From: Mixia osmundae IAM 14324
Taxonomy: Eukaryota; Basidiomycota; Mixiomycetes; Mixiales; Mixiaceae
DNA length: 64,000 nt
Reading direction: 5' to 3'
Assembly (NCBI RefSeq): GCF_000708205.1
Contig: NW_014575553.1
Location: 429,606 to 493,605 of the forward strand
Below are positions 19,416 to 42,771 of this stretch, one piece after another. The notes beneath the pieces are model-generated. The model had not been told where the DNA came from. It saw only the letters and a program-made list of their open reading frames with translations, and did no database searches. How positions within the stretch are numbered: position 1 is the stretch's first letter; the number at the start of each line of letters is the position of its first letter. The translations under genes and the position numbers were made by a program.

Positions 19416-19790
19416 CGTGAGAGAGCGGTGAGTGGGTTTGGTATATTGCGAAACAAGAAATTCACTTTGCCTTACAGCACTGACCGATACTTATTTACTT
19501 ATTTTCGAGTCTGGTCAAACTTTGACCCCGCCTCGCGCGAAATCCAGATTAATTCCCATTCGCAGATGGCTCAGGCACAGAAATAAATCGCAAGGCGAAT
19601 GGACATTATAGTACTCGGGGCACATCATCAGATTGAAATATTGACAGAGCAGACCGACGCGCGACGCGAACGCGACTGTCAGCTGCAGAGCTACTGAATC
19701 AAGCAAGTCGAGACTGTACGGTCTGGAGCAAATACTGTCGACGATCTCTTTAGTCATTCACTCGCCAGCCAGAAGGAAAGACTAGTCAAT
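19416..19790. promoter_or_regulatory. Divergent PRP18/H2B (copy 1) intergenic region
   Basis: This 375-bp gap lies between PRP18 and the first H2B. Only the last 30 or so bases before the H2B ATG resemble the leader of the second H2B copy, with a few substitutions. Farther upstream the two H2B promoters are unrelated, and no TATAA-like box comparable to that of copy 2 is seen here. Confidence 0.5.
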
Positions 19791-20268
19791 ATGCCTGCCA
19801 AAGCCGCTGACAAGAAGCCGAGCTCGACCGCCGGCAAGGCGCCTGCTGCTGCCAAGAAGACGACGGCGGCGAAGAAGACGGCGTCCAAGACGGCGCCTGC
19901 TGATGGCAAGAAGAAGCGCAAGACGACGCGCAAGGAGACCTACAGCACCTACATCTACCGAGTGCTCAAGCAAGTCCACCCTGACACGGGTATCTCCAAC
20001 AAGGCGATGTTGATCCTCAACTCGTTCGTCAACGACATCTTTGAGCGGATTGCCTCCGAGGCCTCCAAGCTCGCGCTGTACAACCGCAAGTCGACCATCA
20101 GCTCGCGCGAGATCCAGACCGCCGTCAGACTCATCCTGCCCGGCGAACTGAGCAAGCACGCCATCAGTGAAGGAACGAAGGTGCCGAGCCGGGTTTCCAA
20201 GCGTGGCGTATCGATGCTGACTTTGCGTGCGCTTCCAGGGTGTCACAAAGTTCTCGTCGGCAAAGTAG
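19791..20268 (+). CDS. Histone H2B, copy 1
   Basis: Exon 19791-20180 joins exon 20239-20268 across a 58-nt intron to give 139 residues. The Lys/Ala-rich tail is followed by the H2B fold ([39 protein letters not shown]-type core, [20 protein letters not shown]) and the end [13 protein letters not shown]2B pairs with H2A in nucleosomes. The coding sequence is identical to copy 2 at 41925-42402. Unlike copy 2, it has no H2A partner beside it. Confidence 0.97.
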
Positions 20269-20429
20269 GCGCTCAACCGTGTCGACCGTATTTTCGAGCT
20301 TCTCGTTGTGTCTTTCATTGTATGCCATCGGCTTCCATTCACCTGTTGCGCCTGCTTGCCCGTCGCGAGCGAGCGCGTCTTTTCTGAGATCTCAGCGTCA
20401 CTGGTACATCACGTGCCAGTTGGGCGGCA

Positions 20430-21171
20430 ATGCCATCCCATGCGCACGCTTGCGGTGACGACTGCGGCCATGCGCACGATGATGACGCCCACATTCGACC
20501 CGAGGACGGCGAAAAGGACTTTCTCTGGGGCCGTATCGATCGAGACGGTGTCGTTGCTCTCAACGAGAGCGTCGAAGGCTCAGGCAAGCTCGTCATCAAG
20601 CCTTTTGATCGGCGCAACGACGAGCAAGAGTGTGTCGAGAGTGACGCAGATGAGCAACTCATCCTTCGCATCCCCTTTACGGGCGCCGTCAAACTTCGAT
20701 CGATCCTCATCAAGCCAGGCGGCTCGGGACAGTGCCCCGACAAGATGCATATCGTCTGTCCTGCTTACTGCTGTCCAGCCGTAGACTCATCTCTCGATGC
20801 GGCAGTTTGTGAACGAGTCACTCGACTTTGATCAGGCCAGTGAACGCGAGCCGGTACAGACTGTCGAGATTGTGTCTAGCCGGAGCACGATCGAGTACCC
20901 CGTCAGACCGGCAAAGTATCACTCTGTACAATCCTTGACGCTCTTCTTTCCCTCCAATCATGGCGACGAGACCACTCGAATCTACTTTGTCGGCTTTCGC
21001 GGTGAATACACCCAGGTAGATCACTCGGGTGGGCGATTTAGTCAGACTGATGACACTCGCCGGCAGCTCTCGAGAGAGGCCATCAACTTTGTCTATGAAG
21101 CTCAGGCTAATCCGGCAGACCATCTCAAGATCAAGGGCATCGACGCGGGCCCTTCCTACGCGGGCACTTAG
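20430..21171 (+). CDS. PITH-domain protein (PITHD1-like), copy 1
   Basis: Exons 20430-20753 and 20806-21171 give 229 residues, close to PITHD1 in other eukaryotes. The N-terminus is His/Cys/Asp-rich. The PITH signature follows: CVESDADEQLILRIPF, VKLRSILI, KMHIFVNESLDFDQA, YHSVQSLTLFF, TRIYFVGFRGEY. PITH domains occur in thioredoxin-like proteins that bind the 26S proteasome; stand-alone forms are less well understood. It lies wholly inside the inverted duplication and is duplicated at 41022-41763. Confidence 0.9.
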
Positions 21172-21333
21172 GTCCCGCTGCGTCGATACAACGTGCGCGC
21201 CNGTTTGTAGAGTCGCCAGAAGTATCGCTGCTCGCTCTGGNGGNATANTCTGCGNGAGANGGGCCATCACATCACTCAGGAGCAGGACCGGCGAGACAGT
21301 CTGCAGCAAACGACGCTTGCACGTACACGCAAG

Positions 21334-22638
21334 ATGTCATGGCTAGCGATTGCCACAGTGCTATCCCTCTCTGCGCTTTCATCAGCATCAGTCGTCCATA
21401 TACCCTTTCGAAACGATCACCTGCTTCCCGTCGTCGGCCAGCGAGCTGACAACGTCCCCACGAGCGACTATATCGTCTCCTTTGTCAAAATCATCGCCAA
21501 CGGCCGCGCAGACTGTCCTCGTCAGCTTCCTCAACCCGCAAAAGCACTCCTCTGACCGCACGCATCGCAGAGGGTCAGACCAATTTTGAGGACGGCACGA
21601 TCGAGTTGCTCATCATTAACCAAAGAGGCAACATCGTCTTTGATACCAATGACAGATACCTCATCAGTGATGTCAACTTGCTGTACACGACAGATGAAAA
21701 CGGCTTCATCTTTGGTCACTTCAACATGACCCTCACCGGCGTTTCTGCTATGCAATCCTCTTCGACGCCTTCGACAGCCGGGACTTCCCCCTGGGCCGAT
21801 CCTCAGACTCGCTATTGCTGTCGGCCCTTTATGGCTTTCAGAGTCGTCATCGGCTTGACTCAGCCTGCATTCATACCCGAAGTCAAGCCGTTCAAAACAT
21901 GGGTTGCCTGCAACCCAAACAGAGCGTCGCGAGGCGATGGTCGTTGTCGCAAAACGTTCTCTCCTAGTGTCACCGAATGTAATCCGACTACTGCCACTGC
22001 CAACATTCGTGCGGCATCGGTGCCAGTGCCTGCACACCCACAAGTCTCACGCTACGAGATTGCCGCTCAGGCCAGCGGTCTCTGTCCTCAAGGATACGCA
22101 TCTACCGAGCTCGCCAGCGTGGAGATTTTCGTCGTGGACCAGCATAGCCGTGCCAGGTTCATCGCTGTCAACCGCATTTCCATAGTGAATATCGAATCTC
22201 GCAGGCAGCTGATACATTCGGGCCAGCGATTGATCGAGATTCAACTGACCGCAAGGTTTCTTGCCTTGCCTTGCCTTGCGTTTCTCATGTGCTCATCGTC
22301 AAGCAGGAGTCACGGCGAACAGCAGGAATGGCAGAACAACGAAGACCGCGTGTGCTGCAAGCCCATCTTCAGAGCCTTTTTCTGGCTCGGCGTCGATGAT
22401 CTCAGTTTTATGTACCTGCCCGACGCAACGCTGCGCACTCAAGAGCTCGTTGCTGCATGCCCGCCCAGTAAGTCTTCTGCGCTCGCATAGAGCTTGACTT
22501 ATACCTCGTTCAGGCGTCTTCTCGTATGCTGACCCCCACTGTCAGATCACGCCTTTCAATTGGCCCGGCGAGTGGCCGTGCACGATTCAGAGCAAGGCGG
22601 TCTACAATATACCTTACGGTGCACAAACCCAAAAGTAG
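21334..22638 (+). CDS. Secreted-protein family member 1 (long)
   Basis: Exons 21334-21520, 21571-22467 and 22514-22638 (introns of 50 and 46 nt) give 402 residues. A signal peptide (LAIATVLSLSALSSAS) is followed by ADCPQGQTNFEDGTI, a central region, a DRVCCKP block, CPPS, and the end KAVYNIP...QK. The same order of blocks occurs at 32636-33962 and on the opposite strand at 22657-24066, and the last exon is 125 nt in this gene and in the 32.6-kb copy. The function is unknown. The first 251 bp lie in the inverted duplication. Extra in-frame introns in the large exon cannot be excluded. Confidence 0.75.
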
Positions 22639-22656
22639 CTGTCGAAGGACAATGCA

Positions 22657-24066
22657 TTACTTTCGAGACGTGGAAGGTATGATGCTGTACGGCCTGAGCC
22701 ATGCACGACTCTTTGAAGCCGCGCATATCGACACGGTCGGCTCATACACAATGGAAGCCGGGCAAGTTGATGCGGGAGCTGCCATCGGATCTGCGTTTGC
22801 TGTCAGAGCCACAGCGAGCTCCAAGAGGATACATACTGGGCGGACAGACAACCAAGAAGTCGCCGTAGAAGGCCGGATCCGCCTGAAAGAGCTCCTCATG
22901 GATGCCCAATGCAATACGGGTCTGGATCGCCGTCAGCGCCTACCTGGAGTATACTTCGGCGAACCACCTGTAGGATCGCACGACAGCATAGTCTATCGAC
23001 TTGGCGAGACCATGGCTGGTTCTGTGCAGGCATTGAGCTTCTGTACAGGGCGCAAGGGCAAGAAACCGACAAATCCGGGACCTCTTGTGATGATAAGAAG
23101 GCGCAGCACGTCGTAGCCTTGCACTGTGCCATGGCCCAGTTTGGTGACGCTCTCGATACGCTGTCCTGTCCTGATCGGTCAGACATGTTTGCCTCGACTG
23201 GTACGCGCGCACGTCCAAACTGTCATATTGGTCAGACACCGTCGCCAATGATATCGTGCACTCACGGTGAAGAATTGGACGGGGTAGCCAGCATGACTGA
23301 GCACCGCGATATCGACGTGCGCTTGCTGCGTTTTTGAAGGTCCCCCTGTCGCAGATTCAGCCACAGTCGCGCCGAGAGCACGGACTTACAAGCACACTCT
23401 GAGCGTCCGAGCACTTGTACTGAATAGCACGTCAGGCGAGGCCATTGGTCGATGGACATGACATGCAGCTGCACCGTCGGCGTCGACCGCTGACACACAT
23501 GTCGAGTGTAGGAATAGCCTGGACTTGTACTGCAGTCGACCCAGACAAGAGCACTCGACCGAACGAACTGAGTACGATCGGCACTAAGCACGATCGTGAT
23601 ATTGGCATACGGCCGACAAGTCGCCTTTGCTTCGTCTGACCAAAAGTCTTGCCTTTGCGCGTCAGACTCGAGCGTGAGCTGTACCTCAGCGTAGATGGAT
23701 TCGGACACATCAACGAGCGTATCGACCAGTTGAACGTCAACGACAGTGTCAGCTAGGAGTGCATCAGCTGGTTGCATCTCACTTCTGATGTCGCTCACAG
23801 TCAAAGGTCTTGATTTGGACAGTGCGCATCTTCGTGACAATTGCGATCTGTGTGCTAGCGAGATCGATGACAGTGTCTCCCTCTGCTCTCGCATCCATCA
23901 GCGGGGAGCAGAGCCGGGCGACGGAGATGCGCGTACGCGAGCACTCTGCTGATGCAGTAAGAGACAAGTCATAGTATTGCAGCGCCGGTCGAAGTCGAGC
24001 GCCGTCGGCAGCCACAGAGGCAAAGAGGCTGCCGCACGCCAAAGCGACAGCCACGTTGATTAGCAT
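22657..24066 (-). CDS. Secreted-protein family member 2 (opposite strand)
   Basis: The start is at 24066 with a signal peptide (LINVAVALACGSLFASVAA). Resolved pieces are exon 24066-23937, a 51-nt intron, exon from 23885 downward, and at the 3' end exons 22939-22837 and 22799-22657 with introns of 28 and 37 nt. These restore the family blocks: ECSPEGDTVIDL near the start, then LCCRAI, TRIALGIHEELF, VVCPP and the end YSIIPSTSRK. The middle (about 23800-22970) has long open frames but the joins were not fixed. It converges with member 1, with only 18 bp between stops. Confidence 0.6.
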
Positions 24067-24316
24067 GTTGAGTGCGAGTGGATGTGCAAAGAGGACAGGC
24101 AGGGAATAGATCGCGGCATGAGTCGCTCTTGCGACACTTGCCAATGAGTGAAGGGGCTGACTGTGTCATCGCAAATGCATTGGCGATATATGACGCTGCA
24201 ACGTGCGGACTGCAGTGCACCGGTCGATGAGACAACAGTCTGGCCGGGCCTGAGCAGGCTTCCGTCGAACGGGCCGGTCCAGCAAGTGATGAGATCTGAC
24301 AGTGCGGGGCTGCAGA

Positions 24317-25100
24317 TCAACGGTAGTCTCTACGGCGGTCGGGGCTGCGACTGCGACGGGAGGCGCGAGGTGAGCGCTCACGACGGTATGGCCGCTCATC
24401 ACGCGATGATGCGCGAGGACGATCGAGTGAGGAAGCCTTGGCGGCTCGCTTGAGTTTCTTTTGCTCGTGCCGTCGCTTTCGCTCCTCTTTGGTTTCGCCA
24501 TCGTGCTTGGAGGAGGATCTGCGTTTCTCGCGGGCTTGCTCGATGAGGTAAGCTGCCATGGGGTCTTCAAGATCGATATCTGGCAGATCTCCGTCCGAGT
24601 CGACTGGCTTGACCGCCCGAGCAGCCTCGCTCGCAGTGATGTGTTTCTCTGGCAATGCGTTCAGGGATTGCTCGCTGCGCTCCTTCATCAAGCCAGTCTC
24701 CTGATCATGCTCTAGATGCTTGAAGTTCTTCACGTGATCAACCCGAAGCGTTCTCTCGAGCAGCTTTGAGCCGGTGAGATTGTCGACGGCGAGCACGGTG
24801 GAACGCTGATCCTCATACATCACAAAAGCGAACCCTCTCGGCTTGTGCGTCGTCTTGTCGCGCGGCATCTCGACGTTGACGACTTCGCCGTACTGGGAAG
24901 CTATCGTGATCACATCACCCTCGGTAAGAGCCTCATCGAGGCCGCCCATGTAGATGTAGGCCGACTCCCTGTATTCGTCATGCCAGCTGCCACCGCCGAG
25001 CTCGAGCTGGCGTGCATTGATGGTCCGGATCTGATTGACCAGACTGGAAGGGACCGTGTCAGCTCACTTGGGTCAGGAAGACCGACGGACTGACCTCATT
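24317..25100 (-). CDS. IST3: RES-complex RNA-binding protein Ist3/RBMX2
   Basis: A 5-nt first coding exon (25100-25096, ATGAG) joins exon 25043-24317 across a 52-nt intron to give 243 residues. The conserved start INARQLELG...SWHDEYRESAYIYMGGL, the RRM (RNP1 GFAFVMYED), and an Arg/Ser-rich tail identify Ist3/Snu17 (RBMX2). It belongs to the RES complex with Bud13 and Pml1, which promotes splicing and nuclear retention of unspliced RNA. The tail after the RRM is longer than in yeast, as in animal RBMX2. Confidence 0.92.
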
Positions 25101-25397
25101 CGGCGACTGCCTGCCTGGCGCTCGACGTGAACAGCGGCGCGCTGCCAGTGCTGTCAGAAATCATTTGTCAGCTTGAAAGTGGGTCAAACGAGCGTTGCGA
25201 TTTGGCGCCAGTCAGCACTCGGCCAGGTGAAAGAAGTCGTCGGACCGCTTCGGAAACCTGCTCAGTCGCTCACCAAGCCATCTCAGGAGACGCACCCGAC
25301 CGCCAGACGGCACACCAACGCGCTCACCTTCGCACAGGCGTCCCCTTTACTGGGCTTGCCGCACCAACAGCGAGAACAAACAGTCGGCAGCCTCACG

Positions 25398-26645
25398 ATG
25401 CAGGCGTTCCCCTTGCGACAGTCTGCGATCACGAGCATCACGGCTCCATCAGTCGAAGAGGTCTTCAGGGAGGATCTGGCAGTTCGCCTGATCTGCCCTT
25501 CCTGTCAAGATCCGACGCCCAATTTGGCCGAGGAGTACTCGTCAGGCGACCTCGTCTGCCGATCTTGCGGCCTCGTTCTCAGCGATCGCATCGTAGACGA
25601 ACGCAGCGAGTGGCGCACGTTTGCGGGAGACGAAAAGGGAGACGATCCCTCTCGTGTCGGCGGTCCGTCACCTCTGGCCGGTCTTGGTGGTTCAGCAGAC
25701 CAGTTCTCTACCATCATCTCTGACCGGTTAGTGACCTTCTCTTGCCACTCGTCCCTCATGTATAGCCCGTCGGATCTGTGCGTTCGGACGGAGCTGACCC
25801 TGCGTGCCTACCCGTGCGCGCTCCACCTCTAGAGATGGCAATTCTGGCCTCGCAAAAGAACTCCAAAAAGCCGCTCTCCGTACCCAGCGAGCGTCTGGCG
25901 AGAAGAATCTCGTCGGATCCTACAAGGAGATCTCAGCCGTTTGCGAGAAGATCAACCTGCCCACCATGGTGAGCGACATCGCAAAGCAGCTTTACAAACG
26001 TCAGGACGACGAGAAGTTGCTCAAGGGCAAATCGAACGACGCCATCATCGCCGCTTGCATCTTCATCGCATGTCGACAGGCAGGCGTCTCTCGTACTTTC
26101 AAGGAGATCGTCGAGCTTTCCCGCGTGCCCAAGAAAGTTCTCGGGCAATGCTTCAAGATCCTCAAGTCTGTCTTTGACACCAACGACGTGGGTACGGGCG
26201 GAATCACCGCAGACGGCACTGTCGTCACCGATACTACCCATCGCGTCAACCTCGGCGGCAACGGGCCAGAGGACACCATTGTCAGATTCTGCAATCACCT
26301 GGGCATGTCAGCCTACATCCAGTCACGCGGCCGGGAGGTCGTACGCAAGGTCATGAATCTCGGCGTTCTGGACGGCCGATCGCCTGTCACCGTCGCAGGC
26401 TCGTGCATCTACCTCACCGCCCATCTATTCGGCGAGCCCAGAAGCGCTAGAGATATCGGTGAAGTCGCTGGCGTGACGGATGGCACCATTCGTATGGCCT
26501 ACAGGTCAGTCACACCGAGCTCATAGATCCTCCGTCCACACTGACACTTTGGGACAGGCTCATCCACCCTCACCTCGACGAAGTCATCGACCAAGCGTGG
26601 ATCGACTCGGGACGCGCGGACAGATCGCTCTTGCCTTCAGTCTAG
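25398..26645 (+). CDS. SUA7: Transcription initiation factor TFIIB
   Basis: Exons 25398-25726, 25833-26504 and 26558-26645 give 362 residues. A zinc ribbon at residues 33-60 (CPSCQD, then [22 protein letters not shown]) is followed by the B-linker and two cyclin folds ([20 protein letters not shown] and [15 protein letters not shown]). TFIIB bridges TBP and RNA polymerase II at the start site. The first intron (106 nt) is twice the usual length here. The open frame extends upstream of 25398, but without a better ATG. Confidence 0.95.
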
Positions 26646-26832
26646 ACTAGATTGGCTCATCGGCCGAGCGCTCTGCCGGATGGATTCGCTCGCCATGTCG
26701 GTCTCCCTGTACGATAGAGCATGCATGTCACCCTGTTGTTGTCAATCTGCGTGAAGACTGATCGTGACTTAGCCAGCTTGGTCGCGTCGGCGGATGCTCA
26801 CTCTGATCGGGGCGACAGCTCGACGGTACATC

Positions 26833-27644
26833 ATGAGCTCAGCAGCATCACTCAGACCGATCGTCATCTCCGGGCCGAGCGGTACAGGCAAATCGACACT
26901 GCTCAAGCGCCTGTTTGACGAATACCCCGACACCTTTGGTTTTAGCGTGTCTCGTAGGTCGCACAGGTTCTAGGTGGAGCTGCTGCATCTGACGCCTCGA
27001 ACACGATGCAGACACTACCAGAAAACCCCGGCCGGGCGAAGAGGATGGCAAAGCGTACCACTTTGTGAGCAGGGATGCGTTTAAGGAGCTCATTGATCAA
27101 GTAAAGCTACTCAGCTCTGTTGAGCCGCTAAGCTAAGAGCTCGTGCAGAACGGGTTTGTAGAGCATGCGGAGTTCTCCAAAAATCTCTATGGCACTAGCG
27201 TCAAGGCGATACAAGACGTCGCGGGCCAGGGGCGTCGCTGTGTCCTCGATATTGATAGTCAGGTACGCTCGAGTACGCACCATTCCCTTGACCGTCTCAG
27301 CTGATGGCTTTCCGGATGTGCAGGGCGTGAAGCTCATCAAGGCCAATCATGCTCACCTGAAACCGATCTACGTCTTTCTCTCGCCGCCCTCACTGGCCTC
27401 TTTGCGCACGCGACTGTCAGGGCGCGGCACAGAGTCTGAAGACTCGCTGAGGTCGAGGCTAGAAGCCTCAAAGGGCGAGATAGAGTATGCAAGAACGGGC
27501 GCGTACGATACCGTCATTGTCAATGACGATCTAGACAAGGCGTATCAGAAGCTCAAGGCCGTCGCCGTGGAAGACAGATTAGAAGCAGACTCAAAAGTGC
27601 CGCCAATGGACGAGGATCCTGCAGAGCTGGCAGCGAATGCATAG
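26833..27644 (+). CDS. GUK1: Guanylate kinase
   Basis: Exons 26833-26953, 27012-27100, 27140-27262 and 27324-27644 give 217 residues. The P-loop GPSGTGKS is at about residues 14-21, followed by [34 protein letters not shown] and VLDIDSQGV, all diagnostic of eukaryotic guanylate kinase, which converts GMP and ATP to GDP and ADP. The second intron is only 39 nt. The C-terminus has an acidic extension of about 20 residues. Confidence 0.95.
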
Positions 27645-27682
27645 ACGTCTACAGCGACCCGCTTGGTTTGAGCTGTGCTGGT

Positions 27683-29231
27683 CTAGCCTTCAAGCTCTGG
27701 GTCCTTTGTCGTTAGATGTTTGTCCTCATCATCTGACAGGTCGATAGCCTGTCCATGCGAAGCAGAAGGAGGCTTGTCCTTCCTGGCGTGGGTGTCCGGT
27801 CTGACGATGGCAGACGCAGGTATGATGCCGTCTCCGTTGAGATAATCGTACTCTGTCGTCGTCACAAAGTCGTGGAAGTTCACCCAGGTCGCGAAAGTAG
27901 CTTCCTCTTCCTCTTTGGACCAGATCTTGGGGTAAATCTGCTCGCTCTTGAACTTCTCCATGACGGCTGTATGGTCCGAGAAGCGCAACGCTTGACGCTC
28001 TCCCGACTCTTCATCTTGCCTGTTGGCCTTGAGACCATCTAGCCGCGAGTTGTAATTGTTGAACTCGGGATATTCCAGGAGCAAGCCAAGACTGGGAGCT
28101 TTGGGGACGGCGATGCGGGAGGGCCCGAAACATTCGAGCACGAGGGTCGAAGGCGTGCCGGTGCGAACCGATAAGATCGCCAATCCGATCATCTTCCGCT
28201 GTGCGCGAAACGCAGCCATCAGTCGATGCAGTGGCTAAGGATCGTGCCAGCGTACGATCTGATGCAGCATGAAGGACTGCCCGTGAAGTTTGATGGAGAT
28301 CCATTCGGCATCATCTATCAGGAACGGATCAGACACGATGACCTGTTTCATCACTCTCTGTGCACTGCGGTCACGGAAATCCTTGCCAACGGTAAAGTTC
28401 CAGAAATTATGCGAGCCGAGGTAGCGAGCCAGGGTTGTTCTGAGCGAATCTAGCTTCTCTGGCGTAATTCGCCACAGCTTCCTCGCGGGCAGAGTATCGG
28501 CGAAGATGAGCTCTGGATTCTGCTCGTTCCAGAAAGTCTCCAGAGGCTTTTCTGCCATTCGCGCAGCCATGGGCGTGCCCGGCTTGGGCGGGAGAAAGAC
28601 GTGGGTCGGCAGGGTGTAGTTGTACCAGCGTGAGTCGCAATTTGAGCGAGGATTGAAGCCGCCGGTGACGCGAGGGCAAGCCCATACTCTGAGATGATCA
28701 GGCAGATGTCGATTGATGTGTTCCACGATGTTGTCTGACGATGCGAGCGTTGTGGGCTGCAGAATGAGCTTGAGCGAGAACAGGTTGCCAGCCGCGTGTA
28801 CGCCAGCGTCCGTCCTGGCTGTCCTCGCTAGACCGACCTGCATGACTGATCTGTGTTGAGACCACCTCAGAGGGGGCTTGACGGACCTTACTAGCGCTCT
28901 CTGCGTTGTCCTTGCTGATGCAGCCTGCTTTGACGAGTCCTTCAAAGAAAGCGCCCTCGATCGTGCGCAGCTCGCTCTGACTGGTCGCAAGCCATCTCAT
29001 GAGCTTGCATGTACCCTCTTTGACACAAGGCAGTCACATTTGAGAGCCATAGTAGCCTGTGCCGCAGTAGCCGACGAGGAGAGCCACTTTGCGCTTGGGC
29101 AGCTTATTAGGCGACGAAGTTGACGCTACTGGCTGTTCGGACGGGGAGGCTATGCGTGCTCGCTTCGCTTCAGGCTCTCTGACGGGCGAGGCGGACTTGT
29201 CCCTCCTTGGCAGAGGCACATCGCTCGTCAT
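27683..29231 (-). CDS. PUS1: tRNA pseudouridine synthase Pus1
   Basis: Exons 29231-29038, 28995-28887, 28837-28256 and 28198-27683 give 466 residues. The basic N-terminus precedes VALLVGYCGTGYYGSQ. The catalytic Asp lies in ARTDAGVHAAGN (about residue 111). Further family blocks are RVWACPRV, FNPRSNCDSRWYNYTLP, GSHNFWNFT and LHQIRKMIGLAI. Pus1 makes pseudouridine in tRNAs and some other RNAs in the nucleus. The acidic C-tail (DLSDDEDK) is typical. It ends head to tail with GUK1, with 38 bp between stops. Confidence 0.94.
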
Positions 29232-29309
29232 CAGTCGGCGTGAGTTGGAGAGAGTCGAAATTATTGTCGTCAGCTCGTCATCATCGCATCGTCAGCACTC
29301 TCGTCAGCC

Positions 29310-31422: not shown

Positions 31423-31445
31423 GTGTTGCAGCAGATGCATTAGCT

Positions 31446-32375
31446 TCAGCCGTGGATCTTCAGGCACGCATGAGTCACATTCTGCACAGCAAGGTATGTG
31501 CGTACTAGATGAGCAAGCTCGACCCATTCGTGCACGGCGCGCGAGTGACCTTCGCTGCCCAGTGTCGGCAGGATGTCGGGATGCCAAACGCGTATCGATT
31601 GGAAGCCGCCCACTGCTTGGAGTGTCTTTGTCGTCTCGAGGTCTTGCACGAGTGGCGGTTCAACCGCTGGCTCGCGCGACAGCGAGGCGGTCTTGGCTTG
31701 CCACAATTGGGCGACCTCTTGCTCGAGTGTCTGAGCTGTATCAGGGCCGTCGCGCTCTTCGTCTTCGTCTGCCTGGGAAGAGTCGGGCGATAGCGCGAAC
31801 CGTTGCTTGCGCGGGCTTCTGCGCAAACCAGGCACCACGCCTTCCAATTTGGCGCGTTTGGGCGCTCGCTGGGGCGTTCTGGGGCCTTGATGCTTCGCCC
31901 CTGAGGACTGTGCCGAGTGGAGTGATGTGCCCTGGGCTTGCAAGACGACGCCGGTGTAGCCGCTCGGCAGGTCGAGGTCGAGAGCGCACATGAGCCTGCC
32001 TCTAAAGCTAGCCTGGTGGTAATGACAGCCTTGCTTTGCTGGAACCGCTGTTTTGGTCGCTTCGACAGACGAGACGGACGTGGCAGGAGTGAAGGTAGAG
32101 GCGCCATCAGACGATGCCCCCGGCGTCATTGACTGACTGGAGATCTCACTGGCGCTAGCTTGGCTGCTCTCCACGCCGAGCGACGCGGTCGTGATCTGTG
32201 CTTCTGAAGGCGCCAAGGGCTGCGCCTGTGCATTGAGCGGCGCCGACTGGACAACGAAGTAGCGCTCGATTTGTGCTGGCCCGTCGTGCTTGAGCGCAAA
32301 TGGCATCCATTGAACGAGCGTCTCGTCTAGCGTGGCTGCTTCTGGTATGAGATCGAGTCGAAGCTGAGCCGTCAT
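31446..32375 (-). CDS. Ribonuclease H2 subunit C
   Basis: This is an intronless gene of 309 residues. The conserved blocks are IERYFVVQ near the N-terminus, the hallmark ASFRGRLMCALDLDLPSGYTG split in the middle, and VWHPDILP near the end. Subunit C (yeast Rnh203 family) is a non-catalytic part of RNase H2, which removes ribonucleotides from DNA. Between the blocks are low-complexity Ser/Ala stretches and a basic segment. The stop is 23 bp from the VMS1 stop. Confidence 0.88.
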   Translation of the reverse strand: MTAQLRLDLIPEAATLDETLVQWMPFALKHDGPAQIERYFVVQSAPLNAQAQPLAPSEAQITTASLGVESSQASASEISSQSMTPGASSDGASTFTPATSVSSVEATKTAVPAKQGCHYHQASFRGRLMCALDLDLPSGYTGVVLQAQGTSLHSAQSSGAKHQGPRTPQRAPKRAKLEGVVPGLRRSPRKQRFALSPDSSQADEDEERDGPDTAQTLEQEVAQLWQAKTASLSREPAVEPPLVQDLETTKTLQAVGGFQSIRVWHPDILPTLGSEGHSRAVHEWVELAHLVRTYLAVQNVTHACLKIHG

Positions 32376-32635
32376 GTTCGTTCTGCCGTCCAGAGAGCCA
32401 CCGCAAGGGGGAGGGGGCGGATACGCGAGACGCGCCTTATTAAAGCTTTACAGCTGACAGGCTTAGCGCTTAACGCGACCGAGCTCGCTGTACCTTCAAA
32501 GTCCACCATCGGACCTCTCTCAACCTCTCCAGCTACTGCTCAGGTTTCATCAGGTGCAACCCTGCAGACCGACAGCTGCGCCTTCTGTTGCCCGCTTCGA
32601 ACCGCACGCAAGAGTAAACCCCTTTTGCTCGCAGA

Positions 32636-33962
32636 ATGCTGGAGGCCATATTTGGCATTTTGCTGCTGCTGCTGTCAGCAATCGTTCCCGCACTTTGTCA
32701 GGACGGACACTTGCTAGGCATCGATCCCGACATCGCAGATGAGTTCATCATGCCATACTACAAAATTGAGAGTGCGTCCTCCCTGGCCCTCTCTCGAGAC
32801 CGTCCCCACACGCGTCTTTTGCAGCAAAGGTTGTGGCAGAATGTGCAGGTCGTACGACGACGATCACTCCCGCGTTCTTTGAGGTCGTCACCATCTCAAA
32901 AGCGAAGCAGCAGCTCACACAGAAGCCTTTCAACTGTAAGTCAGACCGGCCCTCGCAGGTCGCATCGCCTCGTTGATGATGAAACAAGTCATCAATGTCA
33001 ACAGACTGAATCTGCGGGGTATAGAGCGAGACGAGCAGGGTCGGCCGACAAGAGGCATTTGGATCTACTTTGTCAATGCTGACGGTCAGCCACAGCGCAA
33101 CTGGACGCCCACAAACCGGCGCTGTTGTCGCGCAGTAGCTTCGGCGAGCATCCGGCTCGGCCTCACAGAGGCCTTTGTCGGTGCTTCTGCCGTCTGGGGT
33201 ATGAAGATGAAGTGCGGGGGCGAGGGCTCCGACCCTTCGTGTGCTATTCGAGACGTCAAATGCGCAATCACACAGTGGAGCGTTCAGCAGGTCATTGAGC
33301 CAGTCGAATATCGTCCGATCACCAACAGTATCCGCTTTGCAGCAGGAGCTAGCGCGTCTTGTCCCATCGCATCAGAAGGCGGCTTCGTCAGACCACAAGA
33401 GTACTATACAGATACGAACGCTAGGGAGGCCGGGTTCTTCACGCTCGTCGTGTTCGGCGTGCAATCGCCAACGGGTCACTACTACAAGGATTTTGCCTTG
33501 TTCGACGCGAGCAATGTCTTCCAGAGTGTCCAGAGTGCTGAGGATCGCAGCACGCGGACAGTGACCGTAGCCATCGTGATGAGGCAAGTCACGTCTGCGG
33601 GTCTCTCTGTCTGCCTGACCGATCGAAGCACCGCAGAGGATCTGGTCTCGCCCAATCTGCCTGGCCCGAGGCGGATCGGCCTTGCTGTATGCCCAACTTT
33701 GTCGTCGAGATCACGTTGGGCATCATTGAAAACAGTTACATCATCCACAGAAGGACCGACGATCGCGGCTTGTTTGTCGCCTGTCCGCCAAGTAGGTCCC
33801 GTGCCTGCCCTGTGGCCGATAGTTGATCTGTTCACAGGCTTGTATTCGCGCGCGACGCCTGCTTGTGCCAAGGAGTACCCTGACAGCGGAGAGACATACT
33901 GTGAGCGTACGATCTACAGCATCTACCAGGTTCCGCTCGATGAGGGCCACCAGAACAGCTAG
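32636..33962 (+). CDS. Secreted-protein family member 3
   Basis: Exons 32636-32771, 32825-32935, 32959-33644, 33671-33791 and 33838-33962 give 392 residues, with introns of 53, 23, 26 and 46 nt. The signal peptide is FGILLLLLSAIVPALC. Family blocks shared with the loci at 21.3 and 22.7-24.1 kb are CRIASL, DRPCCMPNFVVEITLGI, LFVACPP, and an ending around CERTIYSIYQVP. The 23- and 26-nt introns have proper GT...AG ends and are needed to keep frame and to recover the shared blocks. The function is unknown. Confidence 0.75.
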
Positions 33963-34052
33963 TCGAATGCAGACATGATGCATTGGCGTGACACGTGTCA
34001 ACGGATTCGCGACTGTTCATTTCTTTGAGCCGCCGTCGACATTGAGGCCACC

Positions 34053-34875
34053 ATGAGCGCACTGCAGGCAGCCTGGCGGCCGCTGGCTGCTCTGACGCCT
34101 GCTCGGATGCTTGCAAGTCGGCTTGAGCTAGGTCAGTCGTCGTGATGGCTATGCGTGCATCCCGCTGACCGAGCGAACAGATCGTGCAGTCTGCCTCTGC
34201 CAGCAAAGATGGGCTAGCACGTCTCAGAGCCTGCCTGCAAGCTCCGCAGCAAGACAGCCAGGCAATACACCGAGACTGCCACGATCGATGGTCGCACCGG
34301 CCACGAAACCAGCAGGGCTCTCGGCCATACCGCCGCAGAACATCGGATCTGGCCTGACCACAGAGGACGCTGCGAGACTGCTTCGCTCACAGCCGAAGCA
34401 CTATGTCGTCGCTCGTCTCTACGCTCGCAACTACCTGCTGACCGAAGGCGATCAGCTTACCGTACCACTCTTGCGAATCAAGCCACCTCAAATCGCGTAC
34501 AAGCCTCAGCCGAGCCAGCCTCAGGGCGGTGTCGTTCCTGTGGGCAAGAAAATCAGGCTACATGGCATCGTCGAAGTAGGCTCGAGGGACTATACGCTGC
34601 GTGCCCCAGAGGTCCTACCGTCATCAGCCGACGGCACACAAATCATGCCTTTTGTCGCGCGACGGACCGCAAGCGGCACACTTGACCCCCAGCGGGTCTA
34701 CGTCGAAGCCATCGTGACGGAGCACACGAAGAGCAAGATGGAGACTCTGCTCAAGAAGAAGAGAAGGAAGAACTACCAGCGCACGATCAAGTCGAAACAT
34801 GATTGGACGAGATTGCGCATCACGAAGATCGAGGTGACAATGCCAGGCGGTGCCATTGCACAGCGGTCTGTGTAG
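34053..34875 (+). CDS. Mitochondrial ribosomal protein bL21m
   Basis: Exons 34053-34131 and 34181-34875 give 257 residues. The first 45 residues are Arg/Ala/Ser-rich without acids (QRWASTSQS), as in mitochondrial presequences. The L21 fold follows: KHYVVARLYARNYLLTEGDQLTVP, YVEAIVTEHTKSKM, and the family hallmark KKKRRKNYQRTIKSKHDWTRLRI split over the end. It is part of the large mitoribosomal subunit (yeast Mrpl49). Confidence 0.93.
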
Positions 34876-35029
34876 TCAGGCTTCGCTCTTGTTGTATGCC
34901 CATAGCTGCATGCCCGTCACTTGTAGTCACGGCAGACTCGCAGTGTTGTTCTTGCCTTTGTTCTCTTGTGTGACCTCTGACGTTGACGCGCCTCGCACGA
35001 AGGCAGGCTTCGAGGCCTTGCCCGCCGCT

Positions 35030-36902
35030 ATGCGCTGGCACTGGGGCTTCTTCTTCTTCGTCAGTGCGACCTCCGCGCAGCTCCAGATTCCGTTCGTCAA
35101 TCACGCAGCGTCTCAGCCTCAGCCCGCAGGGCCCCTCGTCTGGGGCGAGCTCAATGTACTCGCAACGACCGACATCCACGGCTGGCTGCGAGGTCATGCC
35201 TCGTATGGGCAACAGACTGCAGAGGAGACAGAGCGTAACGCTTCGGGAGACTTGGGTGACTTCTACAGCTTCGCCATTCGGATGAAAGCACTGGCTGCCG
35301 AGCAGAAGCGAGATCTCTTGCTCGTCGACTCGGGCGATCTGCATGATGGCAACGGCCTGTCAGATGCTGATCCCTTCATCAAAGGTCACACGGTCATGCA
35401 GCTTCATCGCAAGCTGCCTTATGACATCACAACCATAGGCAATCACGAATTATACAACCTCACGGTCGCGCAAGATGTTCATCAGACTCACGCTCGTGTG
35501 CTCGGCGAACGCTTCCTCACGAGCAACGTCAACATCACCCTCGCATCGGGCGAGAGTGTGCCGATTGGTCATCGCTTCAGACGATGGACGACTGCGCAAG
35601 GCCGAAAGCTCTTTGCGCTTGGTGTTCTTTTTGATTTCACTGGCAATGCGCACGGAACGGTTGTGCAACCTGTTGCCGCCATGCTCAGAGAAGAATGGCT
35701 TGCAGAAGCGCTGTACGAGAGGCCGGATGCCTTTGTGCTCGTCGGGCATATGTCCACGCGAGATGACGGCTGGCGTGCTGTCATTGAGCACTTGCACACG
35801 CGCCATCCTGGCGTACCAGTGTATGTCCGCTTGCTGCTCGCTCAACTGTGATCCTGACACGGTATTGCAGGCTTACCTTTGCCGGGCATGCGCATGTGAG
35901 AGACTGCATTCAGCATACACCGGCCTCCGTCACGCTGGCATCCGGTCGGTATTTCGAGACGATCGGCTGGCTTTGTGAGTCGTCCAAGGCTCGGACGGTC
36001 GGAGAACTGATGCAAAGGCAGCGGCGAACATCTCCGGTCCTCGGCTCGAGTTCTCGCGCAAATACCTCGACCAGAACCCTACGACGTACGCATACCACCT
36101 TGGACTTGACCGCTCAAGTCTGTCGACCAGCAAGGGCCGTGGGATCTCTGCGGAGCTGCAGCAATACTCGCACGCATGGAATCTTTCGCATCAGTTTGGC
36201 ACCGCGCCGCAGTCCTTCTATGCCAATCGGGCGCCAGAGTGGTCGAGCAAGTCCTTACTCAGACTCATGACAGATGTCATTTTTACCACCGTCATGGCCG
36301 ATACATCTCGTCCGCTATCCCACGTGATGATCATGAACACCGGCGGTATCCGCTTCGACATCTTTCAAGGTCCTTTCACTACAGACAGCCAGTGGCTCGT
36401 CGTGCCGTTCGAGAGCCGACATGTCTTCCTTCCGCGAGTCAAACGGGCGCACATAGAAGCACTATTGCCTGCACTCGAGCTGCATGGCCCGGCGATCGCT
36501 GCTCGTCTGCGTAGTCAGCAGGCCCTTGACGACGCGCAGATCAATGCGGACTATGCAGCGCATACTCGTCGGATGGCGGCGCTTGGCCAGACAGATTTAG
36601 AAGCCAGCACAACCTCTAGCCTGACAGAGGGCTATCGAACCTACGATGACTGTCCCGGGAGAGGCGACGACACGTTGCACCGACCAATTCCTTCGTTCGC
36701 AATCCCAGAATACGTGACCAACGCTCTGCGAGAAGGCGAAAACGAATTCGATCTCGCATGGTTCGACTTTCTGACGCCACTCATCCTCGCGACGCTCAAC
36801 ACTGTGCAGCAAGAGTACCATTACGTCCAGGCAGATGTATCGGTGTATTCAGCAATCAAAGAGGATGAGATGCTAGGCGTCTTTGCGCGCAAGTACTGGT
36901 AG
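35030..36902 (+). CDS. Secreted calcineurin-like phosphoesterase (5'-nucleotidase family)
   Basis: Exons 35030-35820, 35871-35974 and 36022-36902 give 591 residues. A signal peptide (WGFFFFVSATSAQ) precedes the metallophosphoesterase motifs in order: TTDIHGW, DSGDLHDGNGL, GNHELYN, GHMSTRDD and FAGHAHVRD. A 5'-nucleotidase-type C-terminal domain follows with NTGGIRFDIFQGPF. It matches the yeast YHR202W-like group of vacuolar or secreted enzymes, whose substrate is not established. The start was chosen for the signal peptide. Confidence 0.88.
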
Positions 36903-36966
36903 ACTCTTCGCTGTTGTCAGAATTACGTAGATGTATGCATGTTGCTACACGTCTGCTTATCAGCCG

Positions 36967-37368
36967 TCAGACTCGGCTTGTGCTGCAAGGTCGACCAGCA
37001 GCTTCGACTGCGTTCGCAGCCTCCTCAAATTGCTGACAATGCAAAGTGTGCAAGCGAGCTACCGTTACGAGTCAGTGGCTGACTGAGCGGACCCGGTTCG
37101 ACATACTCGAATAAGCTCTCAGCTTGGCCCGGAGGGATGACTCGCCATCGCTGCTAGGATGCGCAAGGGACGAGTCGGTGACGCTAGGCTGGAAGAAGCC
37201 ATCCTGTGTTGTCGGCGTGGCAGGCGACTGCTCGGCCAACTCGACACGGGTGACCATGTCCATATCCTCTCAGAAAGCTCTTGTCAGATGGTGCAGCATG
37301 TTGCGAAGCTATGAGACATGTTCATGGGGCTCGACGATCAGGAGTCGATGACGTAGCCACTCTGTCAT
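36967..37368 (-). CDS. Small protein of unknown function
   Basis: Exons 37368-37318, 37266-37107 and 37058-36967 join in frame (introns of 51 and 48 nt) to about 100 residues: MTEWLRHRLLIVEPHEH, then a Ser/Thr/Pro-rich middle, then a helical end with HCQQFEEAANAVEAAG. I do not recognise it. The joins use good GT...AG sites and typical intron sizes, but support is modest, and upstream exons (a frame ending TDLEASQLLDD near 37390) may belong to it. Confidence 0.35.
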
Positions 37369-37543
37369 CAAGGAGCTGGCTCGCTTCGAGGTCCGTGAAC
37401 GTCCTCGCTGCGCTGAGAGTGCAGTCAGCACTCCGCTGTGAGTGAGAGGCCCAACAGATTGCTCGAAAGAGCAGAGAGATCAGCCTTGTCGGCACGCTGG
37501 CTGGGCGTGCAGGGTCGCGTGCGGATGTGACACCACGACAGAG

Positions 37544-38622
37544 ATGGATGAGCTCTGTGTGCTCGACATTGCAGGCCTCCGACTCGAGCCAGAGCACGAT
37601 CAGCCGCTCATCTCCGATGGCATCCAGACTGCAGTCAAGAAAGGCCGACCCCAGCTCGCTATCAATCTCGCGTTCACCGACGGGACCACACAGCGTTTCC
37701 TGCCTCCTCACCGCTGTGACAGCTTTGAAGCCGTACAGAACATCGTCAGCTATACGTATCTTGAAGCGACCAGAGCGATCCTCGCTGCACGTGGTGTTAC
37801 TGCGACGATTGAGGCAGTCACTCGCGTCGATGTATTCCTTGTCCCTCTTGCCAGCAAACAGGCCTCAAGTCAAGCCGTCAGCCTAAGCGTAGGTCAGCCG
37901 CAGAGCAGTGCGTGGGTCCCTCCCTGCGTCGTCGCTCGGTGCTCATGCTCGTGCAGACGGTGCCACCATCTCTGCTAGCACGACGAGCGGTGAATGTAGA
38001 TCTCGCTTCATCCGCAAGATCTTGTCTGACATCGATAGCAGTCGAAATCCATTCGACGGCATGCGGAGGCACCTTTGACCATCTTCACTCCGGTCACAAG
38101 ATTCTCCTGACCATGGTCGCATTCATCAGTGGCAAGCGCGCAATTGTAGGCGTGACAGGCGACAAATTGCTCAGCAAGAAGGAGAATGCAGAGCTACTAG
38201 AGCCAATGTGTGCAAGTCGTCTCTATATCAGCCAGAGCTGATGCGATGAGTTGCCAGAGAGACTCGCACTCGCAAGGTGGAAGCCTTCATGGCCTCAATC
38301 TCTCCTCGATTGGTTATCGAGACGCCCGTGCTCGACGACGTCTTTGGCCCTACAGCTACCGACCCTGACATCCAGGGCCTCGTCGTCAGTCGCGAGACAG
38401 TCAGCGGTGGCAAAGCTAGTGCGTGCATGTTCTCCCAGCTGGCCCAATTGACGTGGCGCTGCAGTCGATGCTGAGCGCAAGAAGAACAACCTGGGCGGCC
38501 TGCGCACCTTCATCATCGACGTCATTTCTGAGCAAGTGAGCATGCATGACGACAGTAGCGCAGAGGATTTGAAGAATCTCAAGATCGGCAGCACCGCCAT
38601 CCGTCGAATGCTAGCAGAGTGA
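37544..38622 (+). CDS. CAB4: Phosphopantetheine adenylyltransferase (CoA synthesis)
   Basis: Exons 37544-37888, 37957-38209, 38251-38418 and 38465-38622 give 307 residues. The nucleotidyltransferase signature GGTFDHLHSGHK is at about 152-163, followed by VGVTGDKLL, the block FGPTATDPDIQGLVVSRET and AERKKNNLGGL. It matches eukaryotic PPAT (yeast Cab4), which adenylates 4'-phosphopantetheine to dephospho-CoA. The N-terminal 115 residues are a divergent extension usual in fungi. The second intron is 41 nt. Confidence 0.92.
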
Positions 38623-38665
38623 AGCGCATCATTACAACAGACATACAGAATCCTGCGCAAGCCGT

Positions 38666-40297
38666 CTAATGCTCAATCTCACCTTTTGCGTGTGCGGATG
38701 CGACCTTTGTCATGACCTCGACTTGGTTGGCGACATCTCGCAAGACGCCCAATACGCGCGAGTTGCCTTCCGAAAAGGTATAGATATGGTATCGCAGATC
38801 TTGATCCTTGCAGAACTGACGTACGAGCGCGTTGGCAGCCCGCAGATTGTGTCGCGGCAGGCGTGGGAAGAGATGATGGGTGACTTGCATATGTAGACCT
38901 CCATGGAGAAAGTCGAGATAGGCTGGACACTCGACATCCATCGTAGTCCGGATCTGTCGGCTTGCGAAGCTCTCGTACAGTCCGACGTCCTCTGTAGACA
39001 TTGCAAAGTGGCTCAATACGATCTATGAATCTGTCAGTGCAAGCTCGGAATCAGCGTCGAGAGCTCACTTGGACATGTAAGGGTGATGTCGTAGCGAAAG
39101 CCACCATGACAAAGGCGATCCGTAGACCGGTCGTCGGGATTCCTTTGAGCAGCAGTGAGAACCAGATCCAGAAGAATGCGATTCCGGTCATCTCTAGATT
39201 GCGATAGAAGCCACGAGGCGCTTTGGTGGCCAAGAAGGTATACGAAAGTGCGAACAGATTGAAGCGACCGAACATCATAACGAGGAAGTAGAGTTTATGC
39301 CTGGCCAACAGTGAGCTTTGGACAATTCACGAGCACACCGGACATACTGTATGCTGACGAAGAAGCGTGCCGGAGCATCGTATTCCATGATACGATCGTA
39401 GTAGGTGCTCCGCATGCTCTTGAAAAAGTTGGGCGAGATGGCAAAGAATGGCATATGCTGGATATCAGGATCGTGCTGGGTATCGTTGGTCACGATATGA
39501 TGCACATCATGGTTATCGCACCACCATCCGACACTCAGGCCGCCAATGAAATCGGCGATGCAGATGCCCAGCAAACGATCCCATCGGTGGCTGCCTGTGA
39601 TCTCCATATGACCGGCATCGTGCACGACAAAGGTCACTTGATGCCAGAACAGGCCGAGACTGAAGGCCGAAAGCAGATATTGCCAAGTCGCGGTCGCGGT
39701 TGTATAGAAGTAGACAAAGCTGGCAAACAATGCGCCGTAGCGAAGGAGCTCCCAGCGATAGTTCTTCAGCGGCTTTGGATCGTATAGTCCAGCAGCAATG
39801 ACTTGGTCGTGGAGAGCGCGATAGGCTAGCGAGATCTTGTGTTCGCGCTCTGGGCTGATCGAACTGCGAGGCGCCTCTGGCTCGAGCTGGGGCGGCACTG
39901 GCGTGGAGTCTCCGGCACCGCGACGTTCGTACTGTGCCAATGAGGCTGCGAAGGTGGGCGTTGACTGGTACGCATCGGCCTTGCCTGACCATGCCAAGCT
40001 TTGTACTGGCGGCACAAGTGGTTTCCAGCCGAGCTCGTCAGTGTACTCGCTCGCGTCGACCTTGCCAACGACAAAGTGACGCATCCTTCGGAGCGTCGGC
40101 TCTGGATGGTATGCTTCTATCTCGTCGCAAGCATCTCTGCCGACAAAATGCAGAATCGCAAGGGGTCCGCCAGGATGTCGCGCAAGCCAGGCATTCAACC
40201 GATAGACAAGCTGTCGGTGCAAGACCAGCACATGTCCTTGGGCGATCAGAAAAGCGATCTGGTCGCGGCTGAGCGTCTGGAGCTCGCCCGTCAGCAT
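38666..40297 (-). CDS. Sphingolipid delta-8 desaturase, cytochrome b5 fusion
   Basis: Exons 40297-39348, 39300-39069 and 39022-38666 give 512 residues. An N-terminal cytochrome b5 domain has the heme motif HPGG (41-44). The desaturase part has three His boxes, HDAGH (about 226), HDVHH (about 266) and QVTHH (about 440), the last with Gln as in front-end desaturases. The block HVQIVLSHFAMS before box 3 is also typical. It likely introduces the delta-8 double bond in the sphingoid base of ceramides in the ER, a step toward fungal glucosylceramide. A front-end fatty-acid desaturase is the alternative. Confidence 0.88.
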
Positions 40298-40560
40298 CTT
40301 GCGGCGTCTTCAGCTGTTGACAGTCGTTGCGATTTCGCTGGACTTTGGAATCCTGTAGGCGCGGCTTGCCACGCGCCACGTGGAAACCTCCTCGAGCCTC
40401 CTCGAGCTAGATGCCGTTCTCCCTCAGCAGTGTATTTCACGATGTATAATCAGCAGCAGGGACTGCATGTATAAAGTGCGCTGGGCTCTACCGTGCGGCA
40501 AGGCTCAGTGATATACGATTTGAGCGGCAAACAACCGCTTTTCATTGCCTCTCACGACAT

Positions 40561-40859
40561 TTACAGCCCACGAGGCAGGCTGAAGTACACGATCGTGCCG
40601 TCCCCAAGATTGGTCTGACCCTCTGCGATGCGTGCGGTCAGAGGAGTGCTTTTGCGGGTTGAGGAAGCTGACGAGGACAGTCTGCGCGGCCGTTGGCGAT
40701 GATTTTGACAAAGGAGACGATATAGTCGCTCGTGGGGACGTTGTCAGCTCGCTGGCCGACGACGGGAAGCAGGTGATCGTTTCGAAAGGGTATATGGACG
40801 ACTGATGCTGATGAAAGCGCAGAGAGGGATAGCACTGTGGCAATCGCTAGCCATGACAT
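40561..40859 (-). CDS. Secreted-protein family member 4 (short)
   Basis: Exon 40859-40673 and exon 40622-40561 give 82 residues. The first 66 residues, with signal peptide and CPQGQTN, are identical to member 1 because they lie in the inverted arm. Then the sequence departs: LGDGTIVYFSLPRGL and stop, instead of continuing for more than 300 residues. The reading frame and splice sites are intact, so it could encode a short secreted protein, be a truncated paralogue, or reflect assembly at the arm edge. Confidence 0.55.
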
Positions 40860-41021
40860 CTTGCGTGTACGTGCAAGCGTCGTTTGCTGCAGACTGTCTC
40901 GCCGGTCCTGCTCCTGAGTGATGTGATGGCCCNTCTCNCGCAGANTATNCCNCCAGAGCGAGCAGCGATACTTCTGGCGACTCTACAAACNGGCGCGCAC
41001 GTTGTATCGACGCAGCGGGAC

Positions 41022-41763
41022 CTAAGTGCCCGCGTAGGAAGGGCCCGCGTCGATGCCCTTGATCTTGAGATGGTCTGCCGGATTAGCCTGAGCTTCATAG
41101 ACAAAGTTGATGGCCTCTCTCGAGAGCTGCCGGCGAGTGTCATCAGTCTGACTAAATCGCCCACCCGAGTGATCTACCTGGGTGTATTCACCGCGAAAGC
41201 CGACAAAGTAGATTCGAGTGGTCTCGTCGCCATGATTGGAGGGAAAGAAGAGCGTCAAGGATTGTACAGAGTGATACTTTGCCGGTCTGACGGGGTACTC
41301 GATCGTGCTCCGGCTAGACACAATCTCGACAGTCTGTACCGGCTCGCGTTCACTGGCCTGATCAAAGTCGAGTGACTCGTTCACAAACTGCCGCATCGAG
41401 AGATGAGTCTACGGCTGGACAGCAGTAAGCAGGACAGACGATATGCATCTTGTCGGGGCACTGTCCCGAGCCGCCTGGCTTGATGAGGATCGATCGAAGT
41501 TTGACGGCGCCCGTAAAGGGGATGCGAAGGATGAGTTGCTCATCTGCGTCACTCTCGACACACTCTTGCTCGTCGTTGCGCCGATCAAAAGGCTTGATGA
41601 CGAGCTTGCCTGAGCCTTCGACGCTCTCGTTGAGAGCAACGACACCGTCTCGATCGATACGGCCCCAGAGAAAGTCCTTTTCGCCGTCCTCGGGTCGAAT
41701 GTGGGCGTCATCATCGTGCGCATGGCCGCAGTCGTCACCGCAAGCGTGCGCATGGGATGGCAT
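41022..41763 (-). CDS. PITH-domain protein, copy 2
   Basis: Exons 41763-41440 and 41387-41022 encode the same 229 residues as copy 1 (20430-21171), with the same 52-nt intron. All PITH blocks are intact. It sits between the short secreted gene and H2B copy 2, all on the minus strand, in the same order as in arm A. Whether the organism really has two copies depends on the assembly question raised for the arms. Confidence 0.85.
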
Positions 41764-41924
41764 TGCCGCCCAACTGGCACGTGATGTACCAGTGACGCTG
41801 AGATCTCAGAAAAGACGCGCTCGCTCGCGACGGGCAAGCAGGCGCAACAGGTGAATGGAAGCCGATGGCATACAATGAAAGACACAACGAGAAGCTCGAA
41901 AATACGGTCGACACGGTTGAGCGC

Positions 41925-42402
41925 CTACTTTGCCGACGAGAACTTTGTGACACCCTGGAAGCGCACGCAAAGTCAGCATCGATACGCCACGCTTGGAAAC
42001 CCGGCTCGGCACCTTCGTTCCTTCACTGATGGCGTGCTTGCTCAGTTCGCCGGGCAGGATGAGTCTGACGGCGGTCTGGATCTCGCGCGAGCTGATGGTC
42101 GACTTGCGGTTGTACAGCGCGAGCTTGGAGGCCTCGGAGGCAATCCGCTCAAAGATGTCGTTGACGAACGAGTTGAGGATCAACATCGCCTTGTTGGAGA
42201 TACCCGTGTCAGGGTGGACTTGCTTGAGCACTCGGTAGATGTAGGTGCTGTAGGTCTCCTTGCGCGTCGTCTTGCGCTTCTTCTTGCCATCAGCAGGCGC
42301 CGTCTTGGACGCCGTCTTCTTCGCCGCCGTCGTCTTCTTGGCAGCAGCAGGCGCCTTGCCGGCGGTCGAGCTCGGCTTCTTGTCAGCGGCTTTGGCAGGC
42401 AT
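41925..42402 (-). CDS. Histone H2B, copy 2 (paired with H2A)
   Basis: Exons 42402-42013 and 41954-41925 encode the same 139 residues as copy 1. This copy is divergently paired with H2A (start at 42772), the usual fungal arrangement that co-regulates the two histones in S phase. Its leader differs from copy 1 starting 3 bases before the ATG, so the two copies have separate promoters. Confidence 0.96.
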
Positions 42403-42771
42403 ATCGACTAGTCTTTCCTTCTGGCTGGCGAGAGAGTGACTAGTAAAGTTACTGTTGTTGGTTGGTGTTGAGAGAGTCGCGTTCGGGTTGCGTTCTTATA
42501 GATTCGGAACAAAGCTCGCGCGAGTGTGTTGTGAGAAGTTGTAAGCGGCCGTCGATCGGGGCAATTGAGCAGAAGACGCGGTACGTTTGGGAGACGTAAT
42601 CTTACAAATCAATAATTTAATGTCCGCGAATCGTTTTGTTGTTGAGCGCGTGCGTGAGAGCGAGTTGGACGGAGAGAGCAAACATAAAAGGTCGACCGGT
42701 TCGTTCGGACAGACACAAGACTTTTCTCACACCAACAAGTACTTTACGCAAATAAGTACTAGATCATCAAC
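42403..42771. promoter_or_regulatory. Shared bidirectional H2A/H2B promoter
   Basis: This 369-bp region lies between divergent start codons. A TATA-like CATAAAAG at 42683-42690 lies about 85 bp before the H2A ATG. On the other strand CTATAAGAA (around 42495-42503) lies about 95 bp before the H2B ATG. The spacing and symmetry suit a shared cell-cycle promoter. No known histone upstream element was recognised. Confidence 0.6.

Follow-up and report, generated by a model that had tools for sequence, protein, structure and literature searches.

Results

An inverted pair of gene-bearing arms

The window, the whole 64,000-nucleotide stretch of Mixia osmundae DNA analysed here, contains a single repeat pair by a repeat search with an exact seed of 20 and a length of at least 100; the same search found no direct repeat family in the window. 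The two members, arm A and arm B, lie in opposite orientation, and each carries a histone H2B gene, a gene for a PITH-domain protein and the 5' portion of a third gene, here called gene 3. The features are as follows.

18123–19415, minus strand: PRP18-like gene, start codon at 19415; Pfam PRP4-like motif on the N-terminal ORF (E 3.6e-09)
19751–21606, plus strand: arm A; core 19789–21584, fringes 19751–19788 and 21585–21606, with three mismatches each
19791–20268, plus strand: histone H2B gene, copy A; exons 19791–20180 and 20239–20268; 139 aa; Pfam Histone (E 2.1e-23)
20430–21171, plus strand: PITH-domain gene, copy A; exons 20430–20753 and 20806–21171; 229 aa; Pfam PITH (E 1.2e-53)
21202–21260, no strand: the six Ns of arm A, after the PITH stop codon and before the start of gene 3; mirror 40933–40991
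21334–22490, plus strand: gene 3, copy A; proposed exons 21334–21520 and 21571–22490; 368 aa; exon 2 crosses the inner arm boundary
21607–40586, no strand: interior, 18,980 nt
39275–40297, minus strand: cytochrome b5 / fatty acid desaturase gene (first ORF); Pfam FA_desaturase (E 4e-12) and Cyt-b5 (E 4.7e-11)
40561–40859, minus strand: gene 3, copy B; same start, stop after 82 aa, 26 nt past the arm end
40587–42442, minus strand: arm B, the inverted copy of arm A
41022–41763, minus strand: PITH-domain gene, copy B; exons 41763–41440 and 41387–41022, the mirror coordinates
41925–42402, minus strand: histone H2B gene, copy B; exons 42402–42013 and 41954–41925, the mirror coordinates
42772–43287, plus strand: histone H2A gene; exons 42772–42944, 43000–43171 and 43228–43287; ORF with Pfam Histone_H2A_C (E 4.7e-14)

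Both H2B and the PITH-domain gene are complete in each arm, with two exons apiece and introns of 58 bp (H2B, from the spliced translation) and 52 bp (PITH). When the PITH protein was compared with viral contigs, one stretch matched a pattern and none was confirmed as a relative. Past the outer end of arm B stands an intact H2A gene, divergent from H2B copy B, and only at this arm does H2B have H2A beside it. A divergent H2A–H2B pair is a usual arrangement in fungi and is taken as the ancestral state. The H2B copies (20293–20326; mirror 41867–41900) and H2A (43302–43336) also have in common a 35-nt stretch of 88.6% identity, situated 25 and 15 nt past their respective stop codons; a 22-base pattern drawn from it, with up to three mismatches allowed, matches only at these three sites in the window (0.00 expected from shuffles), and the stretch is possibly a fungal histone 3'-UTR element.

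The other three flanks are of different make-up. Outside arm A, the gene at 18123–19415 is divergent from H2B copy A, with its start 335 nt from the arm; we take it to be PRP18, the Pfam match being to a PRP4-like motif, and presume that the C-terminal ORF at 18123–18443 belongs to it. Inside arm B, the desaturase gene is transcribed away from the arm, and its start codon lies 289 nt from the inner end. The interior between the arms has Pfam matches to an RRM protein, TFIIB, bVLRF1 with ankyrin, RNase H2 subunit C, ribosomal L21 and metallophosphatase / 5'-nucleotidase domains, along with a pseudouridine synthase match just below its curated cut-off (23.0 against 23.3 bits). The bVLRF1 release-factor domain (E 3e-59) and an ankyrin repeat occur together in an ORF at 29632–31422, presumably a Vms1/ANKZF1-like protein. 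Seven tandem repeats are present in the window, none of them within or adjoining the arms. RNA genes as seeds of the repeat are unsupported, because Rfam at gathering thresholds gave no match in the window and ARAGORN detected nothing there.

Arm identity is complete in the core and broken only at the edges

The arms align without gaps at 99.68% identity over 1,856 columns (blastn), and a match of such length is not due to chance. Under the mapping x to 62193−x, the 1,796 bases of the core, six Ns included, show 0 differences from their partners; the six mismatches all fall in the outer 38 columns (19757, 19760 and 19788) or the inner 22 (21585, 21589 and 21604). An earlier note on this DNA had placed the arms at the core coordinates, about 19 kb apart and free of differences; the repeat search and the base-by-base mirror comparison agree with that span, spacing and identity, and extend the similar block by 38 bases outward and 22 inward. 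The contrast between 6 mismatches in 60 edge columns and 0 in 1,790 callable core columns (Fisher p = 9e-10) is biased and by itself no biological measure, because the fringe was defined by its own mismatches. Edge-only mismatches are what is expected when reads separate just where the copies start to differ.

The ambiguous bases are common to both arms

In arm A, Ns stand at 21202, 21241, 21244, 21248, 21255 and 21260, and a column-by-column check found an N at each of the same columns in arm B, bearing out the earlier report that six ambiguous bases coincide. Uncertainties at the level of the consensus are thus common to the two arms, the pattern of a collapsed repeat written out twice. The earlier note had gone further, holding that identical Ns can come only from a copied or collapsed consensus; they point strongly to collapse and fall short of absolute proof, since two identical copies could in principle both acquire Ns in matching columns through a sequence-specific failure of reads. 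One consensus was almost certainly written into both arms. Because the Ns indicate this, the identity of the core is no measurement, and its zero divergence is unusable as evidence for recent duplication or for gene conversion. A paper on Mixia osmundae names 454 sequencing with Newbler 2.3 (PMC3376729), and nothing in the present reading depends on it. Short-read yeast assemblies are described, in an excerpt of a Saccharomyces study, as merging inverted repeats into one contig and losing their orientation (PMC9731477).

Across the window 25 Ns occur: 6 in each arm and 13 scattered over 63365–63756, near its low-G+C end (G+C 0.504 for 63001–64000). No 16-base word of 63365–63756 recurs in the window in either orientation; scattered Ns therefore occur outside the arms as well, in sequence that has no partner in the window. 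This cluster perhaps marks a further collapsed repeat, with its other copy elsewhere, or simply sequence of low quality.

An intact and a broken neighbourhood at each arm

Gene 3 distinguishes the inner ends of the arms. Both arms carry only its 5' part, and the coding sequence continues past arm A and is cut off past arm B. The proposed intron is 50 bp long with a CTGAC branch-like site, found by eye; the protein has no Pfam match at E 0.01, and its second exon has no match among solved structures at E 1. In a codon test, the first 45 codons of the frame outside arm A (21609–21743) scored 0.270, a value that none of the 3,435 wrong-frame, 9,778 intergenic or 687 training windows reached, in a comparison that was made post hoc, after the profile had been viewed, with overlapping windows and with training on 18 hand-picked ORFs out of 53. 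The signal is weaker over longer stretches: the score over 100 codons was reached by 3/2,940 wrong-frame and 47/9,078 intergenic windows, and that over 293 codons by 9/1,250 and 45/7,116, respectively. Over the first 45 codons outside arm B, the three forward frames score −0.26, −0.04 and −0.30. Each of the three inner fringe differences alters an amino acid of gene 3 (F/L, E/G and E/V), as would be expected if the truncated copy were free of constraint.

Each arm thus has one intact and one broken neighbourhood. We regard the outer junction of arm B (to H2A) and the inner junction of arm A (to the rest of gene 3) as native, and the outer junction of arm A (to PRP18) and the inner junction of arm B (to the desaturase gene) as broken. 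As is characteristic of an inverted segmental duplication around a unique segment, the two copies are long, face opposite ways and have unrelated flanks, all four of which differ from one another. By blastn, the best match between the outer flanks is a weak one with E 0.33, over a 21-bp stretch, and the best between the inner flanks has E 0.41, over two 16-bp stretches.

The 21-bp stretch lies upstream of both H2B copies (19660–19680 at arm A, 42472–42492 at arm B), where 18 of 21 bases agree around a CGAACGCGACT core. Against controls that, for all flank comparisons, were plain shuffles in 20-base blocks, its score under strict scoring was reached by 0/500 shuffles of the proximal 150 bp and 3/500 of the whole upstream stretch, and under loose scoring by 6/500 and 216/500, this similarity being one result from a set of eight such comparisons. 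The motif itself is not rare in the window, with 4 matches at up to two mismatches against 3.73 expected. The stretch is perhaps a promoter element that both H2B copies have, or else what is left of an older and longer duplication. No similarity was found beyond the inner arm ends, where the score was reached by 339/500 and 147/500 shuffles.

We also compared the two broken junctions with each other, using 150 bp from the outer flank of arm A and 150 bp from the inner flank of arm B, and found no short repeat common to them of the sort that might remain after a staggered or duplicating break. In the proper sense the score was reached by 498/500 and 221/500 shuffles; in the opposite sense it was reached by 208/500 under strict and 74/500 under loose scoring, and in a repeat run by 228/500 and 84/500. 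A break at the PRP18/desaturase site accordingly left no such trace.

Discussion

Probably two loci under one consensus

The arms probably represent two real loci, to judge from their surroundings. This is the better reading because flanks that differ at all four ends, fringe substitutions and a truncated gene are not what copying a consensus would produce. The earlier note had argued for two real paralogous loci from the flanks and edge substitutions, and this argument gains from the genes, which are sensible on both sides of each arm. As the probable account, we favour a pair of real loci for which a single consensus was printed. On this view the fungal chromosome would have a true inverted segmental duplication, with H2B, the PITH-domain gene and the 5' portion of gene 3 at two sites, and reads from the middle 1.8 kb, not being separated, would have led the assembler to build one consensus, with six uncertain bases, and to write it twice. 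That estimate covers the two loci together with the single consensus; the origin of the layout is a question it has in common with the first two alternatives discussed below, and the likelihoods given here overlap and do not sum to one.

The arrangement of the arms suggests a past inversion, or else a mis-orientation. PRP18 and the desaturase gene may once have been divergent neighbours, and H2A, H2B, PITH and gene 3 may once have formed a single block. If 19 kb had been inverted with staggered breaks at the H2A–gene 3 end, a single step would have yielded both the inverted duplication and the present layout, and a complete copy of each gene would have been left. In Drosophila, inverted duplications at both ends of inversions have been attributed to staggered breaks, according to the accessible part of one study (PMC3355041). 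The asymmetry of native and foreign junctions that such breaks would leave is seen at both arms, with the outer junction of arm A blurred by the 21-bp similarity. Later, the arms may swap sequence by gene conversion, which could also flip the interior. We put the chances of a past inversion at about even, and ongoing gene conversion is possible and somewhat doubtful. The proposal of the earlier note that recombination between the arms could yet invert the 19 kb is plausible.

Staggered-break inversion, duplication followed by a flip, and a mis-oriented interior all give the same layout, and the sequence alone cannot choose among them. Under the second of these, the block would have been copied in opposite orientation into the PRP18/desaturase intergenic region, recombination between the arms would then have flipped the 19 kb, and gene conversion would have maintained the likeness of the core while the edges decayed. 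The 21-bp similarity hints at such an older, longer duplication with its core kept alike by gene conversion: it suggests decayed homology beyond arm A, is easier to reconcile with an older duplication than with one staggered break, and weakens the case for a clean foreign junction at the outer end of arm A. Diverged fringes flanking an identical core fit as well, and the excerpt on the Saccharomyces repeats discussed below describes a similar process (PMC9731477). Two events are required, however, the upstream similarity is weakened by loose scoring and could be a shared promoter element, nothing similar was found beyond the inner end, and the identical core is itself a shared consensus. We consider this course of events unlikely.

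We hold it to be just as unlikely that the duplication is real and its interior was mis-oriented by the assembler. One arm would then have H2A and the unbroken gene 3 as its neighbours, and PRP18 and the desaturase gene would flank the other. If reads are shorter than an arm, 1.8 kb of identical sequence gives no information on orientation, the consensus common to both arms suggests that they were not kept apart during assembly, and flipping the interior restores two simple neighbourhoods. On the other side, read pairs spanning more than an arm, if there were any, would have fixed the orientation, and the four junctions bear no sign of error. A false duplication, in which the assembler inserted a single real block twice, would account for the six shared Ns and the absence of core differences, but is improbable: the flanks differ at all four ends, the edges carry six substitutions, and gene 3 beside arm B is truncated with a stop of its own, none of which would arise from a copied consensus by itself.

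Comparison with known inverted repeats

Returning to two real loci that share one printed consensus, the closest known case is the flip/flop region of Saccharomyces chromosome XIV, where, in the portion of the paper available, 24 kb lie between 4.2-kb inverted repeats whose arms are kept alike by gene conversion (PMC9731477). As there, gene-bearing inverted repeats with near-identical arms surround a segment of about 20 kb, and the merging of arms by short-read assemblies, with orientation lost, has a probable counterpart here (PMC9731477). Unlike those repeats, as that excerpt describes them, the Mixia arms are shorter, carry H2B and a PITH-domain gene, have a printed identity that is a consensus, and are seen in a single orientation from one assembly (PMC9731477). 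Of the homogenisation that marks the flip/flop type, the Mixia arms show an identity confined to the core, which is itself a shared consensus.

Two animal systems offer further parallels. Inversions 2h and 2q of D. mojavensis resemble the present locus, in the accessible part of their description, in having inverted duplications of non-repetitive, gene-bearing DNA at two breakpoints, of which one copy may be partial; they were compared with an uninverted relative, whereas here a single sequence stands alone (PMC3355041). The human X-chromosome inversion HsInv0389 (FLNA, EMD) likewise involves inversion of a segment mediated by inverted repeats and is called recurrent in the excerpt available; it differs in being mammalian and in having been genotyped in many individuals, against one assembly here (PMC3961182). 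Among the literature matches listed, none gave an earlier account of the Mixia repeat, which is no proof of its absence from print.

Implications

An inverted duplication of a histone gene is of a known kind, and the value of this one lies in a caution about assembly and in a small inversion that can be tested. An identity of 100% between two arms of a draft assembly can be the product of bookkeeping. Until reads confirm them, the order and orientation of the genes lying between such arms are no basis for synteny or for histone copy counts. It is rather improbable that the locus is a second fungal flip/flop region, outside Saccharomyces, in which an old H2B-carrying inverted duplication stays identical through continual gene conversion and the 19 kb invert back and forth in the population. 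Were that so, one H2B copy would always lie beside H2A and the other always beside PRP18, and the housekeeping genes on the inverting 19 kb would include those for TFIIB and RNase H2 subunit C. A real inversion would make the locus a compact fungal case of an inverted duplication that leaves at least one complete copy of H2B, the PITH-domain gene and gene 3.
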